NCBI GenBank assembly: GCA_022560555.1
Contig: JADFSZ010000016.1
Coordinates: 1 to 15,918, forward strand
Direction: 5' to 3'
DNA: 15,918 bases
Source of the DNA: JADFSZ01 sp022560555 [NCBI: PVC group bacterium]
GTDB lineage: Bacteria; GCA-001730085; JADFSZ01
Part shown: piece by piece, positions 407 through 698 of the stretch
Layout of the letters: each line of letters starts with the position of its first letter
Numbering within the stretch: position 1 is the stretch's first letter
Translations under genes and position numbers: made by a program
The notes under the pieces: model-generated
Told to the model about the DNA's origin: nothing
Database searches by the model: none
Seen by the model: the letters and a program-made list of their open reading frames with translations, nothing else

Positions 407-698
407 TGGCTCCCCCGGCAAGACTCGAACTTGCGACATCATGGTTACGATCTGACTCTAATTTCTTAGAGAGTCGGACTTTCTCTTTACCCGTTCACAA
501 TGAGTGAAGTAGGGTAGCGGGTGTAAAGTCTCTGCACTTGCCCTTCACAGTTTGTTAACCATGAATGCTAGCTCAGGATTGCCTTGGCCGTTGTCAGCTT
601 TAGGTTTCCCTGAATTAGCCCGCTTTTCATCTCAGTGTTTCCACTAAGAGCTGCTAACTTGTAACAGCCACGCGCTCTACCAACTGAGCTACAGGGGA
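407..698 (-). tRNA. tRNA-Asn(GUU) interrupted by a group I intron
   Basis: The gene is split. The 5' exon is 698-664 (35 nt) and the 3' exon is 447-407 (41 nt, including encoded CCA at 409-407). Joined, they give a 76-nt cloverleaf. Acceptor UCCCCUG (698-692) pairs with CGGGGGA (417-411), with discriminator G at 410. The D-arm is GCUCAGUUGGUAGAGC. Anticodon stem CGUGG (672-668) pairs with CCAUG (444-440), the 7-nt loop is CUGUUAA, and the T-arm is GCAAG UUCGAGU CUUGC. The loop places GUU at 34-36, which reads Asn codons. The intron lies between U35 and U36, so the unspliced gene has no intact anticodon loop. The plus-strand reading frame across this locus (203-469, WLPRQDSNLR) is the well-known false translation of an antisense tRNA and is not a gene. 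Confidence 0.95.
448..663 (-). ncRNA. Group I intron (IC3-like, 216 nt, no ORF) in tRNA-Asn
   Basis: A self-splicing core can be drawn. P1: exon GGCUGU pairs with internal guide GCAGCU (654-649), giving the required U-G pair at the 5' splice site. P10: GUUA (658-655) pairs with the 3' exon start UAAC (447-444). P2: CUUAGUG/CACUGAG with a GAAA loop (648-631). P3: AGCGGG (624-619)/CCCGCT (521-516). P4: TCAGG (613-609)/CCTGA (577-573). P7: GACTTT (530-525)/AAAGTC (482-477). P8: ACCC/GGGT (515-489). P9: CTCTAA/TTAGAG with a GAAA loop (471-456). The last base is G (448). The segment GTGCAGAGACT matches the conserved R element around P7, and AAGAGAAAGTCC resembles the S element. Size and architecture match the small introns of cyanobacterial tRNA-Leu and Azoarcus tRNA-Ile. 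There is no room for an internal homing endonuclease. Confidence 0.93.

Follow-up and report, generated by a model that had tools for sequence, protein, structure and literature searches.

The window, a stretch of 15,918 nucleotides from a draft genome of an uncultured bacterium of the PVC group (contig JADFSZ010000016.1), carries a tRNA-Asn gene on its minus strand that is interrupted in the anticodon loop by a group I intron. The 5' exon (698-664) comprises the acceptor strand, the D arm, the 5' strand of the anticodon stem and the loop through U35, and the 3' exon (447-407) runs from U36 to the CCA end; both were delimited by the cloverleaf of the spliced form. The intron between them (663-448) is 216 nt long and ends in G, with boundaries given by the spliced product and the cloverleaf test. 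Removal of these 216 nt leaves a complete tRNA of 76 nt, which ARAGORN identifies as tRNA-Asn(gtt). By default the program reports no tRNA in the unspliced window, and with introns allowed it misreads the gene as Thr(cgt). A strict cloverleaf test returned a full cloverleaf from seven adjacent splice registers and from none of 60 shuffled segments. A U at the 5' splice site together with a G as the last intron base is found in one of the seven registers, and that register reads GUU, which places the cut between U35 and U36. The Thr(CGT) identity was rejected because the CGT registers lack the U and G splice ends. The predicted ligated junction, joining the end of the 5' exon to the 3' exon, is GGCUGU-UAACCAUG. 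The initial annotation, which had proposed two tRNA-Asn(GUU) halves split between U35 and U36 and a terminal G on the intron, is borne out on all these points. A promoter-like site (TTGATA-17-TATGAT, 758-730, minus strand) lies ahead of the tRNA, and a terminator-like hairpin of 11 pairs with a T-rich tail (395-370, minus strand) lies directly behind it. Both are consensus matches with counts near chance expectation (three promoter-like sites found in the region against 1.0 expected, and one hairpin against 0.7).

The intron matches the Rfam model Intron_gpI (RF00028) over its full length with 83.8 bits against a cut-off of 50 (E 1.8e-20, 455-673, minus strand), in agreement with its first assignment to group I. 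Its core shows no visible difference from this family; four of its relatives in tRNA-Asn genes score under that threshold. All helices lie on the minus strand. In P1 (668-650), the exon bases GCUGU followed by UA pair with UAGCAGC and place a U.G pair at the splice site (664 with 654). The P2 hairpin (649-630) is closed by a GAAA loop. P3 is formed by 623-619 and 521-517, P4 by 613-609 and 577-573, and P7, the guanosine-binding helix of group I introns, by 530-525 and 482-477. P8 is a hairpin (516-488, pairing 516-512 with 492-488). P9 (471-456), taken from the Rfam alignment, has 6 bp and a second GAAA loop, L9. The paired elements P3, P4, P7, P8 and P9, the two GAAA tetraloops and the U-G pair in P1 had all been described in the initial annotation and were recovered here.

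Support for this core was sought in 23 bacterial tRNA-Asn introns, aligned by MAFFT and not fitted to a structure, with the counted structure taken from the window intron. A total of 95.9% of the paired cells are paired, and 23 of the 35 pairs show changes on both sides. The covariation value is 0.540, compared with 0.146 in shuffles (none of 500 reached it) and no more than 0.106 when the partners are slid, though any structure taken from a member of the alignment tends to have a built-in advantage over slid versions. Compensatory changes are clear in P2 (all six inner pairs changed on both sides), P3 (5/5 pairs, 100% paired), P4 (4/5) and P8 (4/5). P7 is paired and mostly invariant: its first four pairs and the splice-site U.G are unchanged in 23/23 introns, and its last pair fails in 7/23. 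The count leaves out P9, the inner two P1 pairs (paired in 17 and 18 of 23), the outer two P2 pairs (holding in 10/23 and 12/23) and one P3 pair. The intron is probably of the tRNA type, in an IC3-like subgroup. A P10 helix matching the 3' exon, also claimed at first, fares less well. A pairing of 4 bp (GUUA/UAAC) is available in the window, but 7% of shuffles equal it, three of the 23 introns have none, and only 2/23 beat their own shuffles at 5%.

No ORF of endonuclease size, and hence no homing endonuclease ORF, is present in the window intron. The longest ORF wholly inside it encodes 31 aa on the opposite strand, and a 48-aa ORF on the same strand runs into it from the 5' exon side. A GIY-YIG ORF at 904-1173 was considered as the homing enzyme of the intron and found unsupported in this role, being outside the intron, single-copy in the genome and a short stand-alone domain. 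This ORF is flanked by a 44-nt repeat (763-806 and 1193-1236) and short inverted arms, as seen in the region 760-1280 of the window; a third copy of the repeat (G000:C131:1478-1522) lies close to a tRNA-Arg (1606-1679).

The draft genome (1.66 Mb, 222 contigs, 91.5% complete) contains one group I intron. No other tRNA-Asn was found among its 30 other tRNAs over the cut-off, which span 15 amino acids, and one further tRNA, truncated by a contig end, reads Gly(GCC). A DNA search for a second copy returned the two exons as the only full-identity matches longer than 20 bases. Asp, Cys, His and Tyr are likewise without a tRNA among the 30 loci, so that the draft does not contain a full set and could be missing a second tRNA-Asn; the four kinds may be lost in draft gaps or represent further hidden genes. 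The proposal that this is the only tRNA-Asn of the genome is thus upheld by the tRNA set and the DNA search but falls short of proof. An intact tRNA-Asn pattern was matched in 0/14 genomes with the split gene, the window genome included. The general sensitivity of this pattern is about half (199/386 genomes matched), and the exons themselves fit it, by selection in 13 relatives and by inspection in the window. In the second genome of this phylum that was covered (G001), the tRNA-Asn gene is intact and the group I model gave no match. The draft genome of the window yielded no asparaginyl-tRNA synthetase above the cut-off. The two best synthetase matches are a lysyl-type and an aspartyl-type enzyme, the latter examined in part, and Asn-tRNA may therefore be made by amidation in this organism.

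A pattern scan of named genomes, which may omit the genome of the window, yielded at least 118 loci. The pattern fixes the U35/U36 site and an intron of about 190-250 nt, so that neither counts as a finding of the scan. Among the matches listed, tRNA-Asn is truly split in 13 of the 118 loci, the remainder being uninterrupted tRNAs that lie side by side or, at L063, a stretch of N. The 13 come from Clostridia (L055, L132, L134), Elusimicrobia (L056), Portnoybacteria (L069), Buchananbacteria (L131), Saccharibacteria (L158), Betaproteobacteria (L073), Burkholderiaceae (L092), Omnitrophota (L091, L135), Nitrospirota (L126) and an unplaced bacterium (L059). Nine of their introns pass the Rfam cut-off. 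Together with the window, 14/14 spliced forms are read as tRNA-Asn(gtt), 14/14 introns end in G, and ARAGORN in its default mode detects none of the 14 genes. Once introns are permitted, the program calls Asn in nine of the 14 and a wrong identity in five.

The Intron_gpI model, which is free of any tRNA pattern, was also run over 386 genomes sampled around the window genome and not as a census. Matches were found in 44 genomes, 28 of them over the cut-off; the strict filters make these counts an undercount. The host was examined for 54 of the 57 match rows and for one row from another search. A tRNA-Asn gene split after nt 35 accounts for 11 rows, one of which is the same intron as that of the Nitrospirota locus above, and two more tRNA-Asn genes are split by long introns (L165, L167). 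In total 13/386 genomes, including that of the window, have a split tRNA-Asn, and the U35/U36 site recurs in the other classified tRNA-Asn cases of the survey, which were found without the site-fixing pattern. The same insertion at the same nucleotide was thus obtained from both searches, and the arrangement is not unique to the window genome. Other hosts are Leu(UAA) with four cases and a further one in a doubtful register (L198), Arg(UCU) with three (L186, L200, L204) and Arg(CCU) with one; the four Leu(UAA) and three Arg(UCU) genes are cut after nt 34. One tRNA-Tyr(GUA) gene has a group I intron after nt 35 (L166), a host for which we know of no earlier description. Three tRNA-Met-like hosts were recognised by eye (L181, L191, L193). 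Among the 20 loci given to Rfam, seven have group I introns in 23S rRNA (L183, L188, L189, L033, L034, L171, L174), and two have group I matches beside or inside a tmRNA gene (L195, L201).

Compared over aligned columns, short exon ends included, the window intron shares 70-78% identity with the introns of L091, L126, L178 and L182, and little less with those of L169 (69%) and L055 (67%). A phylogenetic tree was built from 55 introns and midpoint-rooted; it includes no Ile intron, and many of its deep nodes are poorly supported. The window intron groups with L091 from Omnitrophota, L126 from Nitrospirota, L178 and L182 with support of 99/99, a grouping across phyla that could in part reflect old inheritance. 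The tRNA-Asn introns do not form one clade in this tree but are scattered among Leu, Arg and Tyr introns, and three viral tRNA-Asn introns sit with an Arg(CCU) intron (94.8/96).

Both long tRNA-Asn introns end in G and are associated with an ORF. That of L165 is 562 nt long with an ORF of 108 aa (L165 1719-2045), and that of L167 is 552 nt long with an ORF of 146 aa (L167 1683-2123) which, as listed, begins upstream of the intron. The two ORFs have HNH-like matches of 18.6 and 18.2 bits against a Pfam cut-off of 21.4 (E 0.002-0.003). Relatives of the L165 HNH-like protein were located at 46 loci in viral contigs. Candidate split tRNAs lie at 10 of these, and they were discarded, since none is Asn and all are apparently spurious.

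The split tRNA-Asn pattern was also found in 85 stretches of viral contigs, 80 of which were examined as loci. The viral filter was passed by 21/80, and after subtraction of two tandem arrays (L257, L267) a split tRNA-Asn is left in 19/80, two of these (L237 and L271) sharing the same intron. The viral label of these contigs rests on IMG/VR, apart from matches to PHROGs. In five of the seven contigs tested, a phage family other than a nuclease was matched: a terminase in L263, RIIA in L271, an amidoligase in L273, an RNA-binding protein in L272, and a halogenase and a kinase in L255. L249 has an HNH nuclease only and L233 has no match. In the tree, the viral intron of L233 pairs with the Burkholderiaceae intron of L092 (98.6/100), and that of L230 groups with two Clostridia (85.1/98). 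No viral intron of the 55-intron tree falls in the group of the window intron, and the window intron has no match in plasmid and phage records.

INPHARED was searched with three viral introns, one of the listings giving the best 20 of 40 records, and 12 regions were opened. No split tRNA-Asn was found in the five regions checked, the other seven being judged by annotation only. Split genes of other kinds were seen in phage records, namely Leu(UAA) in Agrobacterium phage Atu_ph07 (L301) and in a 735-kb phage record (L304), and Arg(CCU) in a Microcoleus phage (L302). Klebsiella phage Muenster (L299) has a seemingly split Met gene by eye only, for which ARAGORN makes no call. A term search did not find the word intron in those parts of the Atu_ph07 paper text that it covered (PMC6102473).

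The classic bacterial tRNA hosts of group I introns are tRNA-Leu(UAA), tRNA-fMet, tRNA-Arg(CCU) and tRNA-Ile(CAU), the last being the host of the Azoarcus ribozyme. The intron described here shares with the bacterial anticodon-loop introns a small core, a P1 on the anticodon arm with U.G, a last base G and a host tRNA that is restored by splicing, here predicted. It differs in its host, tRNA-Asn(GUU), and in the cut after nt 35, compared with nt 34 in the surveyed Leu(UAA) and Arg(UCU) genes. Bonocora and Shub reportedly described, in 2001, cyanobacterial tRNA-fMet introns with an endonuclease ORF. The tRNA-Asn introns resemble these as anticodon-loop introns able to carry such an ORF; the HNH match is weak in L165 and L167, however, and the window intron has no such ORF. 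According to the passages available, further hosts include tRNA-Arg(UCU) and tRNA-Leu(UAA) in large sulfur bacteria (PMC4853749), claimed Arg, Gly and Lys tRNAs in cyanobacteria (PMC5733544), and fMet and Ile2 tRNAs (PMC8450103). The notion of tRNA-Arg(UCU) as an unreported host was dropped in view of the sulfur bacteria. Two reviews from 2014, in the passages available, place bacterial tRNA introns in cyanobacteria and in alpha- and beta-proteobacteria (PMC4033280), and every phage intron then known in protein genes (PMC3984707). Some tRNAs with group I introns are mentioned in circularized genomes, 34 of 36 of them CPR (PMC8172020); as in the present case these tRNAs are hidden from the usual programs, but the part available names no host tRNA. 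Among the matches listed, in a search of a partial library, no paper was recognised as describing a bacterial or phage tRNA-Asn with a group I intron, and no such description was recognised in the passages around the matches in PMC11835236, PMC6125680, PMC7886860, PMC9769974, PMC5418858, PMC11782384 and PMC5107563. This agrees with the initial remark that tRNA-Asn(GUU) is not a described host. The intron therefore is of a known kind, a group I intron of a tRNA anticodon loop, in a host that appears undescribed and, judging from the sequences surveyed, common.

We conclude, with a probability of roughly nine in ten, that the single tRNA-Asn(GUU) gene found in the draft carries within it a small group I intron that has no endonuclease ORF and is predicted to splice. 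The anatomy of the gene, the co-varying core, the conservation of the site to one nucleotide and the finding of no second tRNA-Asn are the observations on which this reading draws. After transcription the intron would fold, and its guide GCAGC would pair with the end of the 5' exon and form the U.G pair at U35. A guanosine, the probable cofactor, would be bound in P7 and the RNA cut after U35. The freed U35 would then attack after the last G of the intron, joining U35 to U36 in a tRNA of 76 nt, and the decoding of Asn codons would presumably depend on this splicing. Its origin is best accounted for by introns that spread horizontally into the tRNA-Asn site, in some cases carrying an HNH-like ORF, and the window copy would be a form that lost this ORF or never had it.

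Small tRNA group I introns are known to self-splice in vitro, which counts against a need of this intron for a host protein such as a tyrosyl-tRNA synthetase-like protein or an RNA chaperone. Its complete and compact core with both GAAA loops points the same way, and such a requirement is rated unlikely, though it draws some support from the short P10 of the window and from some group I introns for which protein-assisted splicing is known, as stated in the part available of PMC3984707. The split gene might also be a decayed copy, with a working tRNA-Asn in the missing part of the draft. The incomplete, fragmented assembly and the four other amino acids without a tRNA would allow for this; the exons, however, fold into an undamaged cloverleaf ending in CCA, the intron has its full core, the promoter- and terminator-like sites are still there, and none of the 14 genomes with the split gene shows an intact one by pattern. 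Decay is accordingly judged improbable.

Less probable again is a role of the intron as a switch, in which conditional splicing would set the supply of tRNA-Asn. The sole tRNA-Asn found and an anticodon that, judging from the sequence, would be held in P1 before splicing are compatible with such control, but at the Rfam gathering threshold the window gave no match to any ligand-binding RNA family, and the sporadic distribution and the ORF-bearing forms fit a mobile element. The chance that proteins splice this intron, in the manner of archaeal or eukaryotic tRNA introns, is negligible: we found no point in support of this, the group I core co-varies, and the site is U35/U36 instead of the position 37/38 usual for protein-spliced introns, as given in the available part of PMC4033280.

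Beyond the ribozyme-interrupted tRNA-Asn gene of the window, we hold at even odds a broader reading, in which U35/U36 of tRNA-Asn(GUU) is a main site of bacterial group I introns, entered repeatedly by introns that are sometimes armed with HNH and exchanged between bacteria and phages, such that Asn decoding in many lineages would depend on a ribozyme. The site would have escaped notice since tRNA programs fail to detect the split gene or give it a wrong identity. Among the tRNA hosts that could be classified in the survey, tRNA-Asn(GUU) is the most frequent (13/386 genomes, against four, or five with the doubtful case, for Leu(UAA)), and if this frequency holds, existing lists of tRNA introns in bacteria have gaps. 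By way of the split tRNA-Asn genes seen on viral contigs, introns could pass from one phylum to another. With the same insertion present in other bacterial phyla as well as on contigs of phages, these may harbour a common arrangement that has so far gone undescribed, and genomes that seemingly have no tRNA-Asn may simply hide the gene.
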